DNA of 64,000 nt, taken from assembly GCA_907163375.1 (NCBI GenBank), contig CAJQUW010009249.1:62001-126000 (forward strand). Reading direction: 5' to 3'. How positions within the stretch are numbered: position 1 is the first letter of the stretch; each line of letters starts with the position of its first letter. The notes beneath the pieces were generated by a model. That model had not been told where the DNA came from. It did not search any database and worked only from the letters and a program-made list of their open reading frames with translations. Positions 1 to 29,856 of the stretch are shown here, one piece after another. Source of the stretch: Prostheceraeus crozeri. Its lineage: Eukaryota; Platyhelminthes; Polycladida; Euryleptidae. Position numbers and translations under genes: made by a program.

Positions 1-461
1 CTTCATGCACATGTCTCGCAATCTCAGACCTGTCAACGTCTATTTGTTTCACTGCTCGAAGATGTTCTTTCTTGCGCTCCTCCATCGTGCGACCAGATTC
101 TCCGACGTAGGACCAGGAGCAGTCTGGCTGTGAGCAGGGTACCCTGTAAACTACACCAAGCTCCAATCCTCGAGTCGGTCTCTTCTTCACCAAAAGCTGT
201 TGAAGAGTGGTTATGGGTGCATCTTAAACAACGTCGGTATGAAACCCATAACCACTCTTCAACAGCTTTTGGTGAAGAAGAGACCGACTCGAGGATTGGA
301 GCTTGGTGTAGTTTACAGGGTACCCTGCTCACAGCCAGACTGCTCCTGGTCCTACGTCGGAGAATCTGGTCGCACGATGGAGGAGCGCAAGAAAGAACAT
401 CTTCGAGCAGTGAAACAAATAGACGTTGACAGGTCTGAGATTGCGAGACATGTGCATGAAG
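1..461. repeat. Long inverted repeat (arms 1-218 and 244-461, 25-bp loop)
   Basis: Bases 1-218 are the reverse complement of 244-461, with no mismatch in the parts I compared, around a 25-base spacer. The arms carry the start of a Penelope-like GIY-YIG coding region, so the same protein begins on both strands. The left arm runs off the window, so its full length is unknown. Head-to-head copies occur in Penelope-like insertions, but a near-perfect palindrome at a sequence edge can also be an assembly foldback. Confidence 0.9.
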
Positions 462-883: not shown

Positions 884-1447
884 TTGGCTTCCTATAATGA
901 ACACTTTAATATTAATGTTAGTGACAAGGACCTTAAACTACCAAAACTTTTCTGGATTCCAAAATTGCATAAAAATCCTTATAAGTTTAGATTCATTGCC
1001 GGAGCCAGAAATTGTACAACTAAAAAGTTATCGGTGAATATCAACAAAGGTCTGAAAGTGATAAGAGAAAATTTCCATAGATACTGTGAGTCAATCAGGA
1101 GTAATACTGGTTATTCTTATTTTTGGAGTGTAGCCTCGACTCAAGATTCTTTGAGGAATATTTCTAACGTGAACGTCCACTCTATGCAAGTTTTTGACTT
1201 CTCTACTCTTTATACAAACTTAGATCAAGAATAATATTTTTCCATCCTTGATCTCACATTCAATTCCACTAATCGTAGATACTTGTGTGTAGGATATGAA
1301 AAGTCGTTTTTCTCCAAAATCAAATATAAGGGGTATTCTTGTTATGACGTGGACTCTTTTAAGAAGGCTATTGATTTTATAGTTTCTGAAGTCTACATTT
1401 CTTTTTCCGGTTATGTGTTCAGACAAATTCGAGGAGTACCAATGCAC
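884..1447 (+). pseudogene. Penelope-like reverse transcriptase, 5' half (interrupted)
   Basis: The first part reads KLPKLFWIPKLHKNP then FRFIAGA, the fingers-region signature of Penelope-like reverse transcriptases, and ends at the palm-like FDFSTLYTNL with a stop at about 1234. A second frame (1283 on) continues to FRQIRGVPM, the start of the conserved G-x-P-M-G box. Reading is broken by at least one frameshift or stop near 1230-1280 and then by a DNA transposon inserted immediately after the GVPM codons. The partner half resumes at 4782. No GIY-YIG domain was seen after the 3' half, so this differs from the first element. Confidence 0.6.
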
Positions 1448-2007
1448 GAGTGGCAGGAAGCATGATCAAGTGACAAAAAATTTGACGACTTAGGATGAAG
1501 CAGCTTTTGGTACTTTTTGATACGCTGATTTCAAAAATCATAGTGGCGTAAATCATCTATTGGCTCCTTTCGAGATATAGGGCCATGAATATTCTGACAG
1601 CCAATCAGAATCGAGGATTCCTATAATTCATGCAAAGTCTATTTAAAAAGCTTTTAAATGCAGTTTTAAGCTATAAATATGATTATTTATACATTTTTAG
1701 ACATTCTAGAATATTTTAGTGCATCCATTACGGATATATCAGATGATATAGGCATTCTGACGGCCAATCAGAATCGAGCATTCCATGAATTTGAAATGTG
1801 CTAGGCCTACTCAAAACCCTACGAAGTTTAGACTTCATTTATGTTGTTTATAGATGGATTTACATAGATAATGTTATTTTTGATCTGCTATGATTATATA
1901 CAGACAGTAAACATGATTGTAAACTAATAACCGTCTAACAACCAATTAGAATTGAGTATTTGTATAATGCAGGAATATGCTTTTCTTAGAAATGGTGAAA
2001 CATCAGT
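1445..2007 (+). repeat. Left TIR of Chapaev-like element
   Basis: This is the reverse complement of 4216-4778 with few mismatches. Three diverged sub-repeats of about 40 bp lie inside, near 1597, 1756 and 1935. The first two contain C-CAATCAGAATCGAG and the third CCAATTAGAATTGAG; they are candidates for internal transposase-binding sites. Confidence 0.85.
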
Positions 2008-2206
2008 TACAATTCATTTGTAGGCCCATATGTATTTCTGTGAAAATTGTGCTGATCACTGCTGGATGTAGGTCTTTGTCTTTAGAAATCTAGCAACTAG
2101 TGATAATTATTTTAATTGTCAGTCATATTTATAACAATATACAGGTACCATTTAAAAGCTAATTCCTTCAGCTTGTAACCGCATACAGTTGGGAAAAGTC
2201 TTTTTG

Positions 2207-3681
2207 TTATACTATTTTTATTTGCATGAAGCAACAACTTGAAATAAATGTGGTTCTATTCAAATCACATGTGACGTCCATTGTATCGGACCGTAGTGTC
2301 AAGTAGGTTTCTGTCAAAAGCTGGGTGCACTCTTGAAACCTTCCCGCATTGAGTCCACAACGCGCCAAAGTTGGCATGCACGGCTTCTGGGGATGAGTGC
2401 TTCCATGGGCCTGGATTCCGGTCACTATGTTGATCATTTTAAGATCCATGGCCATGGTGAATTTGCTTTGAAGGTTCTCTATTTCCAACAAATCGAAAAC
2501 TGACTTCACATTCTGATAGCTCTCCTTGAAGTCGGGAACTATGGCTAACACAAAGAGACGCTTAACACTCGAATCAGTGAATCCAGTTGAAGAACCAGAA
2601 GCATTGTCATCAGTAATCATGGACATACGCACCTTGAAGATCCACCGTCAGCTCCTATTTTCAAAAGGACGTCGTTGCAATCTAATTCACGGATCTGAAG
2701 GATATAATCAACAAAGCGAATGACATCATTGCAGTAAACTACAAGAAGTATTGAGTCATCGTCCACAATAACTTGTCCCAATGAGAAGAAATTGGAAAGA
2801 CTTTTATCGCGATTGATGAAGTATTGCAGGCAATTTCCATCGATAGAATTCCGCACAGCTGACTTCCGAATGAAAGGACAAATAATCGTCTTCATTGCAA
2901 CATTAGATGCACCCAAGGATATCTGTAACTCATTCAAAGTCTCAGAATGAAATTTAGTCTCTTGTATAGCTTTGCTATCACTCATTGAGATTTTCAGTGA
3001 ATTTGGACCCTTTGTAGCGAACGAAATTTGCTCAGGCTGGCTACTCTCCCTCAACTTTTCCCGAATCAACTCACCAGCTATCAAATCCTTGCTTCTCTGA
3101 TCCTCGGTACTGACGATCTCCGTCAAATTGCTCCGCAGAGTCGAAATGTTACACGAATGCGAGAGTCCGCGATGTATAGTGGAATAACAGGATGTACATA
3201 TTTTTGTCCTGGACGAACGGGGCATGAAAGACTTCTGATCTAATGATGGAAGACGACCTACTTTTCGTTTTGGAGCAACAGTACCTCTACATCTTGCGAC
3301 GTCACACATCTGACAAGGACAGACAGGAAAGGGATCTTGGCGTGTAGCTGTAAGGCGGATGGAAGAAACAAGACTGCTGAAATCATGGACTTCCGGAAGA
3401 GTATTGACATCTTTCTTGTCTTGGCTTATTTCTAACAAATCATTTCGACATTCTGAACAAATCCCATTCGGTAGTATGAAGTCATCCGCATTGTAACTTT
3501 CTATGAAGAATCTCTTAATTCTATCTACGATGACATTGGTTACATCATATTTGGCTTTCTCAAAGCAAACGATGCAAACCCGGCGGCGGTTCTCTTCATG
3601 AGTTCCTGGTCTCTTACCATGAGCACTCATTTTGTAGAAATAAAGAAGATCCAAAAATGTAAACGAACAATGTAACCGCAA
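2207..3681 (-). pseudogene. Transposase of the Chapaev-like element, frameshifted and C-terminally truncated
   Basis: The N-terminal part (start 3681, or the internal Met at 3630) has a treble-clef-like Cys array (VCIVCFEKAK, then GICSECRNDL), a second Cys cluster (CPCQMCDVARC) and a third (CTSCYSTIHRG), ending at KIGADGG, a likely first catalytic Asp region. A frameshift near 2620-2630 passes reading to a second frame with VKRLFVLAIVPD and a MDLKM segment, the probable second catalytic Asp. The HPC-x2-C motif expected next is damaged (HPQKPC), and the part that would hold the final catalytic Glu is missing. The protein would cut and join the TIR ends. The copy looks non-functional. Confidence 0.65.
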
Positions 3682-4215
3682 GAATTAGAACAGAGCTGCC
3701 TCAATTTACGCACTCGATAAACAGACTGGCGCCAACTAGCTGTCGATAATCAATTAGCAGCTGCAAACCACGAAAATGCGCGCATCAAAAAATCAATGCA
3801 GTCTTCGCTTTAATTGCTTTACGTCAAACACATCAAGACAGTGCGTGCGCATTTGTAATGCTTGTGTTCAATGCATAGTCAGCTCATGATGGCTGACTAC
3901 CTATTCACACGCTGCCATTACACAACTGAAAACTTCCCAAATTCATAACGTGTGATGATGATTTTATTAAAAATAGATTCCGAGATTACTAAGAAAAGCT
4001 TAGTTCTTATGCTAAAGCTTAGTTTTCGTATGAATTATCACATCTGATTTTTTAGATGACATGTCTTAATTTAATAGCTTTTCGACCATCAAGTAGACAA
4101 TAATTTATTATTATACTGATTAGCACGAATGTTTTACAAAAATGAAAATGAATTGTAATCCTATTGTGCTTCGAGGATAAATAAAGAATTGCATACATAC
4201 ATACGCACACACACT

Positions 4216-4778
4216 ACTGATGTTTCAACATTTCCAAGAAAAGCATATTCCTGCATTGTACGAATACTCAATTCTAATTGGTTGTTAGACGGTTATTAGT
4301 TTACAATCATGTTTACTGTCTGTATATAGTCATTGCAGATCAAAAATATCATTATTTATGTAAATCCATCTATAAACAACATAAATAAAGTCTAAACTTC
4401 GTAGGGTTTTGAGTAGGCCTAGCACATTTCAAATTCATGGAATGCTCGATTCTGATTGCCCGTCAGAATGCCTATATCATCTGATATATCCGTAATGGAT
4501 GCACTACAATATTCTAGAATGTCTAAAAGTGTATAAATAATCACATTTATAGCTTAAAACTGCATTTAAAAGCTTTTTAAATAGACTTTGCATGAATTAT
4601 AGAAATCCTCGATTCTGATTGGCTGTCAGAATATTCATGGCCCTATATCTCGAAAGGAGCCAATAGATGATTTACGCTACTATGATTTTTGAAATCAGCG
4701 TATCAAAAAGTACCAAAAGCTGCTTCATCCTAAGTCGTCAAATTTTTTGTCACTTGATCATGCTTCCTGCCACCCGTG
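4216..4778 (-). repeat. Right TIR of Chapaev-like element
   Basis: Mirror copy of 1445-2007, same length, carrying the same three internal sub-repeats in reverse. Its outer end reads CCACCCGTG against CACGAGTGG at the left, one mismatch within the first 17 bases. Confidence 0.85.
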
Positions 4779-4781
4779 AAT

Positions 4782-5374
4782 GGGAGGGAATTGCAGTCCT
4801 TTACTTGCCGACTTGTTTCTGTTAAATTGCGAATTTGCTTTTTATGAAACAATTGGTTAAAAATAAAAAGTTTGGACTAGCTAAATTATTGTCAAACACT
4901 TCGAGATATATAGACGATATATGCGTAATAAATTACAAGCATTTCAATACCTTAATTCCAAAAATTTACCCAGTGGAGCTTCTTGCAGATAGAAACGGAG
5001 TCAATGACAAAGCCGTTGTTTACCTCGATGTGAGACTCCAATCTAGTAGTGGCGGTCTTCGAACCTCAATATATCATAAAGTGGAAGATTTTGATTTCCC
5101 TGTTGTTCTGTTGACATTTCCAGACAGTGCAATACCTTATAACATGGGAATTAATGTATTTGCCGGCCAGGTTTTACGTTATTGTCGCATCTGCTCGCAT
5201 CTTGAAGATCTAATTAAACGAATTAATATGACACTTTTTGTGATGAGCGGCAGAGGATATTGTAAGTCTAAAATGAAGGCATGTACTGAGAAATTGCTAA
5301 CCGGTCATAACAACTTTCTAATCAAGTTTGGATATTTCTCAGCCAGGCAGCTGACATCGCAGTGCGCATTTTAA
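4782..5374 (+). pseudogene. Penelope-like reverse transcriptase, 3' half
   Basis: Reading resumes right after the transposon as M-G-G-N-C-S-P-L-L-A-D-L, the continuation of the GVPMG box. A frameshift or start near 4835 opens a 179-residue frame with SRYIDDICVI (catalytic Y-x-D-D), VVYLDVRL, the SIYHKVEDFDFP segment and a NIPY-like IPYNMGINVF box followed by a Cys-rich RICS helix, the usual order after the Penelope-like palm. The frame ends at 5374 without a GIY-YIG domain, so it may come from an endonuclease-deficient or differently organised relative. Confidence 0.6.
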
Positions 5375-9297: not shown

Positions 9298-9303
9298 ATG
9301 GTC
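9298..9303. repeat. Left target-site duplication of the Polinton (ATGGTC)
   Basis: ATGGTC sits directly before the first base of the left TIR and is repeated exactly at 29851-29856. Six base pairs is the known Polinton duplication length, so this fixes the element ends. Confidence 0.95.
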
Positions 9304-9653
9304 AGTAGTGAAAACTGTGCCCTACTTGCGACGGATAGGTACATGGATAGGTACATGTAAAATTTAGTGTTATCAATAGGTACATGGATAGGTACATGGA
9401 TAGGTACATGTATGATTTAGTTATCGATAGGTACATGGATAGGTACATGTATAATTCAGTGTTATGAATAGGAACTTGTATGAGATCTGTTTTACTGGAT
9501 AGGTACATGTGTTTGGTACACTCAGTTGAGTACACTGTGTTTCGGAACGTCTATGATCGAACTTGTGTGGTTGGTTCTGAGCACTTGGGTACGTACCGAT
9601 AGACGTCCGTTGTTTGATTTTGAATGGGTTTGCTCAATTGCGACTATTGTGAC
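9304..9653 (+). repeat. Left Polinton TIR (350 bp) with GGATAGGTACAT sub-repeats
   Basis: Nearly identical to the complement of 29553-29850. Tandem 12-bp units GGATAGGTACAT with spacers occupy the outer third. This TIR has about 53 bp more than the right one, explained by an extra block of those units, so the arms differ by repeat expansion rather than general divergence. The terminal AG is typical of Polintons. Confidence 0.95.
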
Positions 9654-9734
9654 TATTGCAACCATTGTAATCAAGATGACACATTGATTTTCCTTTTACG
9701 TAGACAAACTATGCTATAAGTATGAGTTAGTTTT

Positions 9735-10979: not shown

Positions 10980-11108
10980 GTGTTTTATGTTATTTTTATA
11001 AGTACCAGCAACAAACTCTGTGTGAATGCTTGTAAACTTTTGTGTATAATGTTGTAAGTACTAAGCAAAAATTGTAATTGTATTATCTATTTCCATATTA
11101 GAATAAAA

Positions 11109-12512: not shown

Positions 12513-13137
12513 ATGACAGATTTTCGTCTATTCACTGATCGCACATTGTGTGTCGCTGGACCAAGTCAGTCCGGTAAAACTACATTTGTAAATCAATTGC
12601 TACAATATAGAAATGAAATGTCTAACAAGGAAATTAAGAGAGTCAAATGGTATTATGGAATATTTCAACCACAACTACATTCTGCACTTCGCCAGAAAGG
12701 TCATGAGGTGAAGCAAGGGTTGCCATCAACTGAGGATATCAAAGCAGGTGACTTACTAGTATTAGATGATCTATTACGAGAAAGCAAATCTTCAAAGGAT
12801 GTAACTGAAATGTTCATTCAAACTGCGCATCATAGGGAAGCTTTTATTATCTACATCACCCAAAACATCTTCGATGGAGGGAAAGAGCAAAGAACTAGAA
12901 GTTTGAATACACATTATTTGGCAATATTTAAAAATCCAAGAGATAGCAGTCAGATACATCATCTCAGTAGACAGATATTACCTCAACAACCTAAAGTACT
13001 TTCAAAAATATATGAAGATGTAACAAAGAAACCACATTTATTGATCTAACCCAGGAATGTCCGAACGACTTCGATTTCGAACAAATATCATACCTAATTC
13101 CGCTCAACAAATGACAGTTTTCTCGGTTCACGGTTAG
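12513..13137 (+). CDS. FtsK/HerA-type genome-packaging ATPase (frameshift near the C-terminus)
   Basis: Walker A GPSQSGKT is at residues 16-23 and Walker B LLVLDD at 81-86. A TQN sensor at 116-118 follows a hydrophobic strand (FIIYI), the standard order of the A32-like packaging ATPases of Polintons and related DNA viruses, which pump DNA into capsids. The continuous frame ends at 13049. The conserved tail (L-R-F-R-T-N-I-I-P) is present in another frame from 13048 to a stop at 13137, so a small deletion near 13043-13048 removed the last 30 residues from frame. The ATPase core itself is intact. Confidence 0.85.
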
Positions 13138-13827: not shown

Positions 13828-13994
13828 GCAAATATGAATTAAGCCTTGCCTCTCTCATATCATGTCGTTACAAAAATTTTGCTGTTGTTTGAAATCTGCG
13901 CTCGAAGGCAAAGGAGAAGAGGGCATAGAGGTTGATATCAATTGTGTTAGCAGTTGCTGTGCGAGTAATACGCGTGCAAATCAGAACAAAGACG

Positions 13995-14994
13995 ATGAGT
14001 ACAGCAGTGAAACTCAGAAAGATTTATTACGACTTAAATCATCCCGCAAGTTTCAGTCGTCCGGAGGTTCTAGCTCGTGCAGCAGGTGTGGGAATAGAGA
14101 AAGTCAAGAAGTGGTTGAGGAGTCAACCGACTTACACTCTTCACAAAAATGCGAGAAAGCGATTTCCAACAAGAAAATATGTTGTTAACAATACAGATAG
14201 TCAATGGCAAGCGGACTTGGCTGACATGCAACAGATATCGCAGTACAATGATGGCTATAAATACATCTTAACCGTAATAGATATTTTATCTCGCTATGCT
14301 TGGGCACGTGCGCTGAAATCTAAACGAGGACCAGAAGTTGAAGCGGCTTTTCAGAGCATTTTCGATGACGGGCGTGTTCCGCAAAGAATACAGACCGATC
14401 AAGGGAAGGAATTCGAAAAGTCTCATGTTCGAAGTCTCCTTAAAAGTCATAATGTGGAATTGTTTAGTGCCATAAGTGCTTATAATGCTGCCATGGTTGA
14501 GAGGTTCAATCGCACACTGAAGACAAAAATATGGCGATATTTCACCGCAAAGCAAAAAATACACATGTTTGGGTAGGTGAGCTGCAAGATTGTATGATAA
14601 GAAAGCGAAAAACATTTCCAATGAAAAGAAAATTAATGTTGGTGATAGAGTTCGGATTTCAAAGGTTAAGTCTACATTTGAGAAGGGGTATCTACCTAAT
14701 TGGACTGAAGAAGAGTTTTTTGTGGATGAAGTAAATACAAAATTTAGACCCACCATGTATAAATTAATAGATTACCATGGCAATCCAATTGAAGGAAAAT
14801 TTTACTCTTATGAATTGCAAGTAGTAGACAGAAGTGAAGAGGTATATATGATTGACAAAATAATTAGGAAGAAAGGTCATGGCAATCAAAGGAAATATCT
14901 AGTTAAATGGAATGGATATCCTGATTCATTCAATAGCTGGATAACGCACCAGGATCTACAAAATGTGGAGGTGGGAGACACTCGTAACTTTTAA
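13995..14994 (+). pseudogene. INT: Retrovirus-like integrase with chromodomain, internally deleted
   Basis: From Met 13995 the protein has a helical N-terminal domain and a DDE core: D74 (WQAD), D135 (TDQG) and E169 (AAMVER), with 33 residues between the last two. The first frame stops at 14576. Another frame resumes at about 14581 with LYDKKAKN, an SH3-like DNA-binding domain (VGDRVRISK, GYLPNWTEE) and a chromodomain (YLVKWNGYP, SWI) ending at 14994. About 60 residues that normally link catalytic core and SH3-like domain are missing at 14550-14580, so this is a deletion plus frameshift. The enzyme inserts the element with a 6-bp target duplication; the chromodomain may guide it to marked chromatin. 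Confidence 0.88.
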
Positions 14995-17144: not shown

Positions 17145-18428
17145 ATGTAGAGTATCAATTCGGCTTTGTGTTTCTTCGATTCTCCCCCACATCAGACAGA
17201 CATCATCTCCTCAACAATTGTAGACATAGTCCCCACAACAAATATCGATGGTAACCAGCAGCCTATTCAGTTTGATATACCTGCCAATCCTCAAGATTAT
17301 ATTGACTGTCAATCCATTGATTTAGAGTTGTGTATACAAATTAAGAAGACTGATGGTACAAATATCGATTCATCCAAGGATAAAGTGGGATTAGCAAATC
17401 TTCCTATTGCCAGTCTGTTCTCAGATGTGTATCTAATATTGAATGACAAACAGATTGAAGGAGGGGATCGAGCATATCCATATGGAGCATACATACATAC
17501 AATGACGCAATTTCAAAAGCAAGCTAAACAGTCACACTTGCAAGTTTCTGGGTGGTATGATGCTCAGCAAGGGAAATTTGATGATGTCTCAAATACAGGG
17601 TTGAAAAAACGAATGGATTTAACAGCGGATTCAAAGGAATTACACTTGAAAGGACCCGTCTATCTTGATTTCCTTCGTCAATCTAGATATCTGCTATCAC
17701 AGGTTAAAATGCAAATAAAATTTATTCGTGCAAATCCTGAGTTCGCGTTAATGGCTTTTGGAGCTACAAACTATCAAGTCAACATAAGTAATGCCGTGCT
17801 CAATGTAAGGCGAGTAACAATGAACCCGTCAGTCATCAACGAGCATGCGACAGGATTGAGGAAAAACAATGCAATATATCCAGTTAATCACAGTGTGTTG
17901 ACAAACTTCACAATTGGTGCGGGATCATCCTCACATGCCTACCTAAATCTTTTTCCCACTGCAATGCCAAAGGCGGTGTATATCACATTTGTGGAAAATG
18001 AGGCATTCATTGGTGCTTTTGAAAAGAATCCATTCAATTTCTAACACTTTAATGTTAGCAAACTAGCACTCTATCATGATGGGAAATTTGTATCTTGCAA
18101 AGCATATGAGCCTAATTTCAAAGATGGTAAATTCGCACGTGAATATGGTTCTACTTTCACCGCCCTCAACATGTTTAATACAGATGATTCAAATGGAATT
18201 ACAATGGATATGTACAAGAATGGCTACTTCTTCATTATGTACAACCTCACAGCAGATGCAGATCTAGGTGGTGAAAGCGTAGGAGTTACAAAGCCTGGAA
18301 ATCTACGACTGGAGGTATCATTTGAGTCACCTTTGAAGAAAACAATTACTTGTCTCATTTATGCTATCTATGATAGCAAAGTTGAGATAACAAGAATGAG
18401 AGACGTGACTGTCAGCTATCAGAGATGA
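17145..18428 (+). pseudogene. MCP: Double-jelly-roll major capsid protein, two in-frame stops
   Basis: One reading frame runs from ATG 17145 to TGA 18426-18428 (about 428 codons) with TAG at codon 2 (17148-17150) and TAA at 18042-18044. The protein has P-P-H-Q-T-D-I near the start, QFDIPANPQDYIDC, IEGGDRAYPYGAYI and, after the second stop, HFNVSKLALYHDG, all matching the pattern of Polinton hexon-like capsid proteins. Both stops are one C-to-T change from Gln, and the second sits where related proteins commonly have NFQH. No frameshift was found. The stop overlaps the protease start codon. Confidence 0.88.
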
Positions 18429-18889
18429 GTAACTTAAGCAACATAGAAATCCTGAGGAAAATGAGGAAAGCTCATCCCTACTCCAAGACAATATTTCTCA
18501 ATGTCTTTTCTAGAGATAATTTACCTGATTCAATTCCTTTCTATCCTTGTTCGCTTATCATCAATACGGATACCAACAATCTTCCCGGAAAACATTTGAT
18601 TGCTGTATACATCAATCGTTATAAAGTTGCCGAATATTTTGACTCTCTTAATCAACCTCGTTTACATGATATCGCATTATGGATGAACAGGTTCTCCTGG
18701 ACTGTTAGGAAAGTGACATCGTTCCCACTTCAAAGTAATACATCTCTAATGTGCGGTGGCTATGTACTCTATTTTGTCAACGAGAGACCATTGAAAAATA
18801 ACTGTAAAAGTGCTTTAGAACTATTTTCAAAAAACTGTGATAAAAATGATGTAATTCTTACTAAATATGTTGAAACAGTTTTGAAATAA
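18425..18889 (+). CDS. PRO: Adenain-like maturation cysteine protease
   Basis: 154 intact residues. The likely catalytic set is His57 (GKHLIAVYI), Asp73 (EYFDS), Gln103 (FPLQSN) and Cys110 (LMCGGY), the order and spacing of Ulp1/adenain-type proteases. Length is slightly below the adenoviral enzyme. The start codon overlaps the capsid stop (ATGA at 18425-18428), which supports this start and coupled expression. Its expected targets are G-G sites in virion proteins; candidate sites occur in the proteins at 11109 (QRGG) and 16652 (QVGG). Confidence 0.9.
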   Translation: MSNLSNIEILRKMRKAHPYSKTIFLNVFSRDNLPDSIPFYPCSLIINTDTNNLPGKHLIAVYINRYKVAEYFDSLNQPRLHDIALWMNRFSWTVRKVTSFPLQSNTSLMCGGYVLYFVNERPLKNNCKSALELFSKNCDKNDVILTKYVETVLK

Positions 18890-19018: not shown

Positions 19019-19588
19019 CTACAATTTGGTTTTCATGAAACATTTTTTCAAATCACATATGATGGGAGGCACATCACTTATGTCTTTAATGCCGGTTATC
19101 ACAATCTTTCCATTATGGAACACATGAACATGATATGGATGCCAGTTAGTCAATTGAGCTGCTGGAAATAGCTCCACTTCATAAGTTAGATTATGTGATG
19201 ATGTAACTTTACGGAAATCATAGTGATAGTGTAATTCACATAACACGGTCATTGTCTTCACTTTCCAATCAGATAATGAATCACCAAGTAAATGTTCCAA
19301 AGTTAAGTGTAGATATGAGAAATCACCCTCCATGACCCTTCCAATATATTGGATTGTTCCATTTGGAAAGAATAGGATAGTGAGAGATCCATCCTTCCTC
19401 TGAATCCTCCATGTTAACATTGAGGGTCTTCCAAGATGTAAGCTCGTTGTCGGCTTCAATTTGCGTTTTATCAGTAACCATTGTTTTCGGTTGGGTATAT
19501 TCCTCTCGATCTCTTGTAGATTGAGTTTTGACTTTGCTTTTGTAGTTAACATCCGATTTACAACTTCCAACCGTTTGATGTCCTCCAT
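19019..19588 (-). CDS. TBP-like protein with two saddle repeats (189 aa)
   Basis: The length matches the roughly 180-residue TBP core. Repeat 1: LNLQEIERNIPN, then LTWRIQRKDGSLTILFFPNGTIQYIG, matching TBP's basic-strand and F-x-x-G-K-x-x-x-T-G pattern. The hinge reads DWKVKTMTVLCELHYH, like TBP's D-F-K-I-Q-N-M-V-G-S-C-D-V. Repeat 2 has TYEVELFPA, like TBP Y-E-P-E-L-F-P, and FHNGKIVITG, like F-x-S-G-K-V-V-L-T-G. Start 19588 gives both repeats in one frame, with no internal stop. Some of the four DNA-intercalating Phe positions look replaced, which needs alignment. The 5' end overlaps the upstream gene by 266 bases. A role in starting transcription of element genes is inference. Confidence 0.72.
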   Translation of the reverse strand: MEDIKRLEVVNRMLTTKAKSKLNLQEIERNIPNRKQWLLIKRKLKPTTSLHLGRPSMLTWRIQRKDGSLTILFFPNGTIQYIGRVMEGDFSYLHLTLEHLLGDSLSDWKVKTMTVLCELHYHYDFRKVTSSHNLTYEVELFPAAQLTNWHPYHVHVFHNGKIVITGIKDISDVPPIICDLKKCFMKTKL

Positions 19589-19949
19589 CTTTAATGAATG
19601 ACGTTATCTGTGGTAGTATCTCTCTTGTAAAGGTTTCCCATGTGACGTCACTGAAACGAAAAAATCGATATTCAACATCTTCACGTTTTGGTGAACAGAC
19701 GTATAGTTTGACTGATGAATCACACTTTATCCATACCTTGTCATCGAGAGGAATCTTGATCCGAGTCTTATGGTTGTCAATGAGATCCGCAAAGTCTTTC
19801 AGTGAAGGCAATGAGTCAATACTAATGCAAACGCCACGATATTTTCGATCACTATTTGCTATTGAATGACGAAATGCTATTCTTTTATAGTTTGTTATGT
19901 GAACGTTTTGAACGTCACTAAGTTTCCATGTTCTAATGTAATGAGGCAT
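19323..19949 (-). CDS. Possible tandem PC4-like (ssDNA-binding coactivator) protein
   Basis: 208 codons. Residues 1-55 and 65-118 look like two copies of a beta-rich unit ending in a helix: GVCISIDSLPSLKDFADLI and FFRFSDVTWETFTREILPQI. This resembles the I-S-L-x-x-x-x-W-x-x-L-x-x-x-I end of the PC4/Sub1 fold that binds single-stranded DNA and promoters. After residue 119 the frame overlaps the TBP-like gene and the tail looks non-conserved, so a natural stop may have been lost or a frameshift may fuse the two proteins. Family assignment is tentative. Confidence 0.45.
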   Translation of the reverse strand: MPHYIRTWKLSDVQNVHITNYKRIAFRHSIANSDRKYRGVCISIDSLPSLKDFADLIDNHKTRIKIPLDDKVWIKCDSSVKLYVCSPKREDVEYRFFRFSDVTWETFTREILPQITSFIKDGGHQTVGSCKSDVNYKSKVKTQSTRDREEYTQPKTMVTDKTQIEADNELTSWKTLNVNMEDSEEGWISHYPILSKWNNPIYWKGHGG

Positions 19950-20228: not shown

Positions 20229-23200
20229 TTATTCTACATCACCTGTGACAGGAAGGCATCTCCTTCTCTTCGACGGTGGGGGAAGACCTAGGCTGTAGTG
20301 TCCATATGGTAATGATAAATTTTTATCCAGCCAACAGCGCTTATCCTCCCAAAGTGAAAGACCTCGCTTCCTAAATGATTTTGTGCTAACTATGTGATTT
20401 TTTGAATTTATAATTGTCATATCTTCAGTTGTATCATTCTCACTATAATAGGCACTCCTATAGTCATCATGATTCAATTTTTTAACTGCTGCTCTCTGAA
20501 TTCCTTTTGCACGTTTGATGCTATGATTCGTAGAGTCAAGATATTTCATTGAATACATTTTCGGTTTTAGTAGGATCATTTCCTCAAGCAACTGTCCAGC
20601 ACACTCATCCTTAAAACAACCTAATCTAGCTTTGTTTGTAGTTGAGTATAGTCGGTGATGACTATCATAGTTTGAAGAGTCAAACTTTTCACCGAAGTAT
20701 AGAAGTATATCTTCCAGACGGACAGATGGTGATGTGTATAAGCATAGGAAGAAACTGTCGGTATCACCTCCACAAAGCCGCGTTCTATTTATCAGTGGAC
20801 ATCCTTTTAGATCATTGTAATATAATTGATACATTTCCAACTTACTATAGTCAAGTACTGCTTGACCAACATATATTAATTTATTTAAAACTATTGAAGG
20901 TTTGTACATTTCCATACCAACCAGATCTTCATCAATTATTTTGTGTTGAACATAGAGAGTATGATTTGACAATTTCAGTAGTTGTTTCTCATTGTTGACT
21001 AGTTTAAATTTTTTCCTTCTCCTTACATTTTCCATTGTTTTACCATATAAAGAACTATTTTTCAATTTGTAGAATGACTTTTCGAAGTCAGTGTTTGATT
21101 GAGCCCTCTTTTGAGAGTTAATATCAATGTATGTTTTTAACCAAGGCTTTTGTGTGAATTTTATGCCACTATGAATCTTCTTGATTCTCATGCTCATGGT
21201 CAAGTAAAATTTTAAAATTGAGTAGTGGACTACATAATTTTCCCTATCAAATCGATGGAGCAGAAGTTTCTTGATAGAAGAAAAATGTGTATTTGGTCTT
21301 ACTTTTTCATATAGATTTTTCATATAGTGTGAAAACATTCTCTTTTCAATCATCTGCATTTCTGGAGCTAATGGGAAATCGGCAGTGTCATCATGAATGG
21401 CTGCAGGATACTCTAAATCTAAATCAAAAATGTAGCCGATTTCACCATCATCATCTATATTTTGAACATTTTCTTCATTTAAAAAATTATCTAATTCACT
21501 TTCATTCAACCATTTGAAATTTGAGTGGGGTAGATTTCTACTGAGTGAAGAACCATAAAGGTTATTAACATCTAAGTAGGTCAAATGTCGACTTTCATGT
21601 GTATTATTTCCTAATTCTTCAATGCGTGCACGCGCTCGGTGAATGTTGGTGAAAGTCATACCCCTTCTAATTCCTCGTTCAAATAGATTGTACATATTTT
21701 CATCTTGTATGTAGTGTTGGGGATCATTGGAAGATAAATTTAGTGCTGAGGCAAAGCTAAGATGTGGGAGACTGACAAAATGTACAGGGTCGACTTCATC
21801 CTCACGTTGACTCAATGCTCTAAACACTTCAAATATGTCTGCCAACAATAAAACATCTAACTTCAGATATGCCAGCATTAAATCACCAAATGTGCTACAA
21901 TTCAATTCAATCCACGCCTTGTTAGCGTGTTCATATTCACTATCGGAACAGTGCTCACGAGTAAGATCATTATAGAATTCAAATTGTGGTGGTAGACAGT
22001 CTTCCGTCAACGTGTTTAAGTTTTTGAAGTATGAATATGGAAACACTCCCTTCTGATATAAAACATTATCACTTAATTGTGGAAATTCTACCCTTAATGT
22101 CTCTACATGCTCATACGTTTGCAAGCCCTTGGCTAATTCACTCAAGGATGCACTTAGAAATTGATATGAGTCTAAGAATTTTAGTTTAAAGTATACCGTC
22201 TTCCCTTTGTATTCATTTACAGGGACACTGGCGGATAAATTTATATATTTTTCAGCAGTTGCTGCTACAACATCTAATTTCCAAGACTTCATTCTTCCAA
22301 TCGCTTTACAGCAAACGATGTGGCTATCATAATTTTTAAAATTGTGGAAAAATGTGGGGAGCTCCCGTCTGTTAAGTCTTAACCGGAGATTGCATTTCCT
22401 ACATAATGTTTGCCTATATCGTCCGGTGATATGATCATGATCACGAACTTTTATGACTTCATCGCTGAATTTCAATTTACATTTGTTGCAACATTCTGCA
22501 TTCTCGTGGCGTGCTTTTTCATCCACTGACAGTGACATTGGCTGCCTAGTTGTTGCACATTGGTTGTCATATAAGTCTTGGGCTACAGTTTCTAAGTGGT
22601 GCAAGAAACTAATAATGCAATTTTCTCCCTCAAAGAGGTAATACTTGTTTTCAAATTTTGATTGAAGGGCATTATGTCAGACATGATAAGCTCCAATGGC
22701 CGCAGGTTTATGTATTTTATTATCAATGTAGCACTCTATATATGCATAAATTACTAAAAGAGGACTTAGTTGATATTTTATGCTACTTGTTAGTACTTTT
22801 AGATCCGATGGCATTTTTTCTATTTGTGCTTTTCCTCGAATACAAAACTGGAAGTGTCGTTCTAGTGTTGTTTTATATGTGAATGACTGAGTGCATCTTT
22901 CGCAGAAGTATTTATGTCTTTTTAAAGTTCTCCTATACAATCTTGACAGCTTTGGAATTCCACAATAGTGTGCTGCTCCATTGTTTAGAATTAGCAAAAT
23001 ATTAACCGTTTGCCTACCAGTAAAGTTACTATCATAACGAACACCTTTGAGTCCATTTTCATAAAAGTGAATGTTAATTTTAATATCATTATTTTTCTCA
23101 AATTTTGGAATATCTTTAATTGATACTGGTGTGGAAATGCCTTCCATATTTAGCTCAGATGTCCACTCACTATATGATTTTACTTCATTCCTTGAATCAG

Positions 23201-24086
23201 GTACTTCATTATAATGCAATATTGATAAAACTGCATATAGGAAGCAATCATTTGCATTTGAATTAACATTAATGACAGCTTTAGAGTTTTTTAACTTCTT
23301 TGGTAGAGGAAATGATTGTCCACCTGACAGTATTGGACTTGTTATTACATTGAACTCTATATTTTGTACATCATCTATAATCCAATTGCTACCCTTTTTT
23401 GTGAAGGCTTCAATATGATTTATTAGACTATTTAGATGATCCTGAAACCAAGCATCATAGTCATAAATATAGTTTGAGGATGATGGGGTAAAGTGTGCGA
23501 GAAAAGTTTCTTCTTCTTGAGGATTAGAACGGACATAACGAATTTGTGCAATCAGACGACCGCGCAATTGATAGCTCCTTAGTAAGTCAGACACTAAATT
23601 CCCTAACATGGAACGCATGCTTTCTAAGAATGATGTTATGTCCACAGTAGGTGTTGTTGGCGTGATATCATACACACGTGCATGGCCATTGAGTGCGCTT
23701 TCGCTGAGACTAACAGTTCCATAGTTATTATGCATATTCATCTCACTATTTGTGTTATGTACATTCATATGCTGTCGAAATCTACTTATAGAGTTATACG
23801 TTTTGCCACACCGAGAGCAGTATTGCATAAAGTTTTGTATGTTAGTTGAAGCGCTGGTTGTTGGCTTAGAAGTAGATCTATTTTGATTATTTGAATTTGA
23901 CTCTGTTATACTATCATTCGGTTTATTATTGCATACAAGTTTATGCCTCTTACGATTATCCATCCTATTCGTCTTATATGGACACTTGCTACATTGATAC
24001 GTTTTTCCTAACTTACAAAATTTTTCATGTCGTTGCAAATTGCCTATGAGAGTGAACACTTTTCCACACTTGGTACAGACAACCAT
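20229..24086 (-). pseudogene. polB: Protein-primed DNA polymerase B with Zn fingers and OTU-like domain; one in-frame TGA
   Basis: One frame of 1,285 codons with a single TGA (22677-22679). The N-terminus has Zn-finger pairs (CTKCGKVF, CSKCPYK, CSRCGKTY). An OTU-like cysteine protease-type region follows, with NDCFLYAV and later HYCGIPKL. The exonuclease region has Exo II (NFKNYDSH) and an HNH-like Cys/His cluster (DHDHITG, CRKC). Polymerase motif A is YLDVNNLYG (about 837-845), B LKNSSLYGKTMEN, and C GDTDS (about 1107-1111). Exo I reads YAYIEC where family members have YAD-x-E, so the catalytic Asp is Tyr (codon 449, 22740-22742). TGA could come from CGA or TGG. It replicates the element from its ends. 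Confidence 0.93.
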
Positions 24087-29415: not shown

Positions 29416-29552
29416 ATTAAACTTACATTGTAAATCTCTTGTCTTTTTCACTTTAAACATAGTTCTGGAATTGGTTTTCTTATTGGGGAGCAACTAAATC
29501 ATAACTGCACATTAAAGTTTCACATCTAAATAGTGCTACATTTAAAATAATT

Positions 29553-29850
29553 GTCACAATAGTCGCAATTGAGCAAACCCATTCAAAATCAAACAACGGA
29601 CGTCTATCGGTACGTACCCAAGTGCTCAGAACCAAACCACACAAGTTCGATCATAGACGTTCCGAAACACAGTGTACTCAACTGAGTGTACCAAACACAT
29701 GTACCTATCCAGTAAAACAGATCTCATACAAGTTCCTATTCATAACACTGAATTATACATGTACCTATCCATGTACCTATCGATAACTAAATTTTACATG
29801 TACCTATCCATGTACCTATCCGTCGCAAGTAGGGCACAGTTTTCACTACT
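29553..29850 (-). repeat. Right Polinton TIR (298 bp)
   Basis: Complement of 9304-9653 except for one missing block of GGATAGGTACAT units and a single-base indel. It ends CACTACT followed by the target duplication ATGGTC. Confidence 0.95.
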
Positions 29851-29856
29851 ATGGTC
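29851..29856. repeat. Right target-site duplication (ATGGTC)
   Basis: Exact repeat of 9298-9303. Together they show integrase-type insertion. Confidence 0.95.

Follow-up and report, generated by a model that had tools for sequence, protein, structure and literature searches.

A Polinton in the genome of Prostheceraeus crozeri encodes its own homologue of the TATA-binding protein (TBP), the general promoter-marking factor, with both repeats of the protein. The initial annotation had spoken of "a Polinton that encodes" TBP, which was right but understated: as judged by sequence, the same gene is present in about four diverged lineages of the same genome besides this one. We put the probability at about two in three that the two-repeat TBP belongs to the Polinton itself and is an element-specific promoter factor, for which host TFIIB and RNA polymerase II would be recruited. 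This reading builds on the homology, the fold, the conservation across lineages, the place of the gene, and the residue pattern.

The Polinton spans positions 9304–29850 (20,547 bp) of the window, by which we mean the whole 64,000-nt stretch of DNA that was analysed. As the initial annotation held, the element is bounded by terminal inverted repeats and a 6-bp duplication. Three main pieces of the inverted repeats pair with each other (99–100% complementary), and ATGGTC is found at both ends. Long inverted repeats and a 6-bp target duplication are traits of Polintons/Mavericks. The features of the element are as follows.

9298–9303, no strand: left copy of the target-site duplication ATGGTC, found by eye directly outside the repeat
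9304–9657, plus strand: left terminal inverted repeat, from an inverted-repeat search of the window
12513–13049, plus strand: P-loop ATPase, presumed packaging ATPase (weak P-loop/FtsK matches under the cut-off)
13932–14994, plus strand: RVE integrase core and chromodomain, in two open pieces
17166–18428, plus strand: presumed major capsid gene, in two open pieces, with a stop ending at 18044
18425–18889, plus strand: protease (PRO), tail to tail with the TBP gene
19019–19588, minus strand: TBP homologue of 189 amino acids, from Pfam, profile, and fold comparison
19392–19949, minus strand: companion gene (COMP), with a PUR-alpha/Whirly-like predicted fold in the first ~127 residues
20229–24086, minus strand: presumed protein-primed DNA polymerase B (PolB), in two open pieces, with a stop at 22677–22679
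29549–29850, minus strand: right terminal inverted repeat, from the same search
29851–29856, no strand: right copy of ATGGTC, found by eye directly outside the repeat

The integrase has the domains of a Polinton integrase, with matches to PF00665 (RVE, E = 5.3e-12) and PF00385 (Chromo, E = 3.7e-09). The window's protease protein alone had no family match in Pfam. A profile of five protease homologues matched the cysteine protease S273R of ASFV (E = 5e-9), which identifies an adenovirus/ASFV-like protease, and two of the homologues had Peptidase_C48 matches (one over the cut-off and one slightly under it). The polymerase, capsid, and ATPase labels come from motifs and gene order, and library matches for them were weak or absent. 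We take 17166–18428 to be the major capsid gene from the usual Polinton gene order; profile searches with this protein and its homologues gave no library match. Similarly, the motifs DVNNLYG, NSSLYGK, and GDTDS in 20229–24086 presumably mark a PolB, for which the profile libraries searched gave no polymerase match. Pfam finds Endonuclease_7 and zf-C2H2 parts in it, and the endonuclease VII-like segment lies near the beginning of the second polymerase piece (20229–22604, minus strand). A gene similar to the presumed packaging ATPase is present in related elements.

In the window copy, the frames presumed to encode the capsid protein and the polymerase are each broken by a stop (they end at 18044 and 22677). 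Because both frames are split, this copy is probably non-autonomous. We compared the capsid-side frame at eight family loci: five of them (L002 and L005–L008) have it longer and in one piece, L001 (the window) and L003 have it divided, and L004 fits neither group clearly. Outside the element, there are large inverted repeats at window positions 1–461 and 1439–4784 (218 nt at 100% and 569 nt at 97%), and these are perhaps other mobile elements.

The TBP gene reads from 19588 to 19019 on the minus strand, and all of the motifs that had been noted in its 189-residue frame (DWKVKT, TYEVELFP, FFPNGTIQYIG, and FHNGKIVITG) are present. Repeat 1 covers residues ~4–101 and repeat 2 covers residues ~109–185. 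The protein scores 43.7 bits against the Pfam TBP family (PF00352, cut-off 22.9) across residues 109–173. With a profile of repeat 1 only (seven sequences), TBPs made up 35 of the 36 solved sequences listed at E ≤ 10, with a best E value of 1.4e-10. The predicted model of the window protein has the order strand-helix-strands-helix twice, so that both repeats are of the TBP type, and fold comparison identified the TBP saddle. Checked in this way, by profile and by fold, the proposal of a two-repeat TBP homologue was supported. Homology follows from the profile and the fold, not from a full set of intercalating phenylalanines (see below). Identity to solved TBPs is 18–21% in the best 38 fold matches, and alignment with the host TBP reveals a 14-residue insert after helix 1.

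Host genes can be picked up by large DNA transposons, so a host TBP gene might have been captured recently and be carried as a passenger. We find this scarcely credible, since the identity to solved TBPs is so low. Also, the host's own TBP frames (L010 and L012) are canonical and very different; the gene is a single open frame in the window and in several diverged lineages; and its Met and Gln changes are common to the 120 listed database relatives. Two host genes aside, there was no closer host paralogue among the matches (at least 150) listed from a Pfam TBP search of the P. crozeri genome. The two host genes account for four of these matches, namely TBP itself and a TRF2-like gene (L011 and L018). 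This TRF2-like paralogue of TBP lies on contig C3829, and one of its two matches has a TGA inside, which is perhaps the end of an exon.

Within its own genome (2.05 Gb), the window's TBP gene has at least 150 near-identical copies (97–100% identity). All of the 150 best-scoring matches listed are open, without internal stops, in a list that puts the best-scoring first and so is biased toward intact copies. For the diverged lineages, we fetched 20 regions of 10 kb around Pfam matches outside the two host genes; these regions were picked for their TBP match, and many are close copies. In 11 of the 20, the order is that of the window (integrase, capsid, protease, and then TBP on the opposite strand), and the ATPase, orfD, and orfF are also in window order wherever they were recognised. 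The other nine (L022, L028, L030, L031, L032, L034, L035, L037, and L038) have the TBP gene next to polymerase pieces, and within their 10 kb we recognised neither a protease nor a capsid gene. Both L037 and L038 contain mirrored pairs. In lineages with a nearby protease, the TBP gene closes the capsid block. The initial annotation suggested searching other Polintons for the same gene at the same place, and the gene is indeed present in diverged ones, tail to tail with the protease in three of the roughly four lineages. The lineage TBPs have mostly 26–36% local identity to the window protein, with higher values across short stretches.

Because the 20 regions had been chosen for TBP, we also performed a TBP-blind check, in which the matches of a protease from a rare lineage were compared with the matches of the TBP piece from the same lineage. 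We took the 29 best protease matches, down to a cut of our choosing (E up to 3.8e-31), with the query's own locus at the top. For 19 of them, a TBP match lies tail to tail with the protease on the other strand, no more than ~1 kb away. The other 10 have no partner among the TBP matches listed. In protein databases, 16 relatives have 50–80% identity to the window protein, and a five-sequence profile found 207 related proteins at E ≤ 1e-3. All of the 120 that were listed carry PF00352.

Diverged pairs of the TBP gene have dN/dS below 1: 0.32 for L025–L039, 0.25 for L037–L028, and 0.34 for L037–L021, where dS is 1.18 and close to saturation. A few near-identical pairs gave values above 0.5 (one was 3.8, on seven changes). 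For L036, whose end is shifted, dN/dS is 0.75–0.88 in comparison with four close relatives and 0.28 with L039. As far as coding sequences tell, the TBP gene has been kept in place in several lineages, mostly under constraint, and some element copies, such as L036, are decayed.

We then counted residues in the window protein and the 120 listed profile relatives (121 sequences). Yeast TBP positions were taken from the available portion of PMC12529657 and were placed by eye through the alignment with host TBP. Of the four intercalating phenylalanines, whose alignment had been proposed as a check, three are kept: F116 and F207 in 121/121 and F190 in 120/121 (one has Leu). At the position of the fourth, yeast Phe99, all 120 sequences with a letter have Met. 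This Met is a lineage trait, and the mode of DNA bending may be different. Also, the Val122 position is Gln in 121/121, and at the L114 position 117 sequences have Gln and four, the window protein included, have Leu. As for the minor-groove asparagines, N69 is kept in 104/104 sequences with a letter, and N159 is kept in 117 of 121, with Thr in four that include the window protein; in the window's close subfamily, this position is Thr in 12 of 17 and Ser in five. Because of the changes at Phe99 (to Met), L114 (mostly to Gln), and, in the window's own subfamily, Asn159 (to Thr or Ser), binding to a canonical TATA may be weak. More generally, the changed saddle residues suggest that the element TBP prefers DNA other than the host TATA.

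The acidic residues of the second lobe that contact TFIIB are conserved. E186 (E137 in the window protein) is Glu in 117 and Asp in four of the 121 sequences, E188 (E139) is Glu in 119 and Asp in two, and L189 (L140) is kept in 111. These equivalences come from our count back from F190; the portion of PMC12529657 available to us names the first glutamate E184. Since the TFIIB stirrup is kept while the DNA-contact surface is partly changed, the protein could act as a decoy and shut down host transcription, either by sequestering host TFIIB or by occupying host promoters. We judge this to be quite improbable, as three DNA-bending phenylalanines and the Asn of repeat 1 are kept, for which a decoy aimed purely at TFIIB would have no need.

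Another alternative involves the companion gene, whose predicted structure has four strands and a helix, twice. Its tail runs, in a different frame, into the beginning of the TBP gene (19392–19588, minus strand), and this overlap of two conserved genes is found again in diverged lineages. In the window copy, the COMP frame continues to 19323; in L004, L005, L007, and L008 it ends at the site that matches 19392. The TBP-like protein might serve replication or integration together with the overlapping PUR-like protein; the site where it bends DNA would then be an origin or the terminal repeats, not promoters. This would suit the fold of COMP, which is predicted to bind single-stranded nucleic acid, and the nine of 20 regions that have polymerase pieces, not the protease, next to the TBP gene. 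Nevertheless, replication or integration would give little reason to keep the acidic TFIIB-contact residues across 121 sequences, and the TBP gene is at the end of the capsid block where a protease is nearby, so we consider it unlikely.

If the protein is instead a promoter factor of the element, as we prefer, its site of action would most likely be the host nucleus. It would bind and bend the promoter DNA of the element through a saddle with three of the four kinking phenylalanines and with Met or Gln elsewhere, and the kept C-terminal stirrup (E137, E139, and L140) would then recruit host TFIIB and RNA polymerase II. We infer these steps, along with promoter choice and timing. There was no Pfam match to TFIIB among the 20 element frames scanned, and no RNA polymerase subunit was matched among the element proteins scanned. 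The first lobe of the window protein is without its basic patch: helix 2 has one K/R, versus seven in the host. Because host regulators use this patch on cellular TBP, the window protein may be free from TFIIA, NC2, or Mot1. Such an escape would not be general, because the patch is partly kept in other members (0 to 7 K+R in helix 2 for the other 28 family members compared, versus 7 in the host).

Which DNA might be the target? In the element, TATATAAG is barely enriched (4 occurrences versus 2.3 expected) and TATATAA is below expectation (9 versus 12.4). Of 47 ORFs, 11 have TAAGC(A/T), a motif that we picked after looking, in the 70 nt before them (1.1 expected). The motif stands just before successive plus-strand genes at window positions 11062, 12465, 13141, 13825, 14992, and 16384, and close before genes in L021 and L024 as well; it resembles a junction or start signal. 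A more detailed proposal is a private core-promoter switch in Polintons of this group. An ancient element TBP, its saddle re-tooled (Met 99, Gln 122, and mostly Gln 114), would read an element-specific promoter, possibly one linked to TAAGC(A/T), and pass it on to host TFIIB and Pol II, with the PUR-like protein as a co-factor. This is tentative, and we would bet slightly against it in full. The initial annotation had the element bringing its own promoter-recognition factor; the evidence supports the TBP, and recognition of promoters is the part that we infer.

Cellular TBPs of eukaryotes and archaea (PF00352) share with the element TBP the two-repeat saddle fold, F116, F190, F207, N69, and the TFIIB stirrup. 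The element TBP differs in its ~20% identity, in having Met for Phe99, Gln for V122, and mostly Gln for L114 (Leu in the window), in being encoded by a mobile element, and, for the window protein, in the 14-residue insert.

Giant viruses (Nucleocytoviricota) and mirusviruses also encode TBPs, and their genomes are much larger than a 20-kb element. Among viral proteins with a name, the best fold matches were the TBPs of Heterosigma akashiwo virus 01 and Terrestrivirus, and several unnamed entries ranked between them. According to the accessible parts of PMC10132985, PMC12529657, and PMC7221094, viral TBPs are known from giant viruses, mirusviruses, poxviruses, and herpesviruses, and the first of these reports TBP in 59% of mirusvirus genomes. 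The excerpted text of PMC7221094 describes viral TBPs that keep DNA-contact signatures and have diverged TFIIB signatures, notes that several viruses encode their own TFIIB, proposes that viral TBPs work with viral TFIIBs, and links the first-lobe basic patch to host regulators. In contrast to the viral TBPs described there, the 20-kb element keeps the TFIIB signature, with no TFIIB match in its 20 frames. KSHV ORF24, the late-gene TBP mimic of a herpesvirus, is also a virus-coded TBP fold that works with host RNA polymerase II, and its V122 position is polar too (Asn, versus Gln in the element TBP). In the sections of PMC12529657 at hand, ORF24 has an extra DNA-binding C-terminal domain, keeps all four phenylalanines, and lacks the TFIIB glutamates.

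With Polintons/Mavericks (including adintoviruses), the element shares the inverted repeats, the 6-bp duplication, the RVE integrase with chromodomain, the protease, the P-loop ATPase, and the presumed PolB and capsid genes. The conserved gene set given in the consulted part of PMC4028283 is without a TBP, which this element carries. Papers on Polintons, adintoviruses, and related elements (PMC4028283, PMC8097293, PMC7805220, PMC10120064, PMC11071296, and PMC11071308) make no mention of "TATA" in their main text, nor, in three cases searched for it, of "TBP". The TBP in the available portions of PMC10675990 and PMC10132985 belongs to mirusviruses or mirusvirus-like elements. Overall, a search of the open-licence literature found no report of TBP in Polintons. 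We know of no smaller carriers of TBP, and in these elements the TFIIB contacts are kept. If the private-switch proposal is true, this would be the smallest DNA virus-like system known to us with its own TBP and with host TFIIB and polymerase.

The ancestors of many eukaryotic DNA viruses are often considered to be related to Polintons. TBP as a stable gene of 20-kb Polintons alters what such elements may control themselves, and it offers a possible answer to how they time their genes in the host nucleus without a polymerase of their own. With its TFIIB surface kept and its DNA surface changed, the element protein amounts to a natural experiment in re-targeting TBP, opposite to the pattern in the excerpted text of PMC7221094. 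Small elements that encode a TBP may direct the host transcription machinery toward their own genes.
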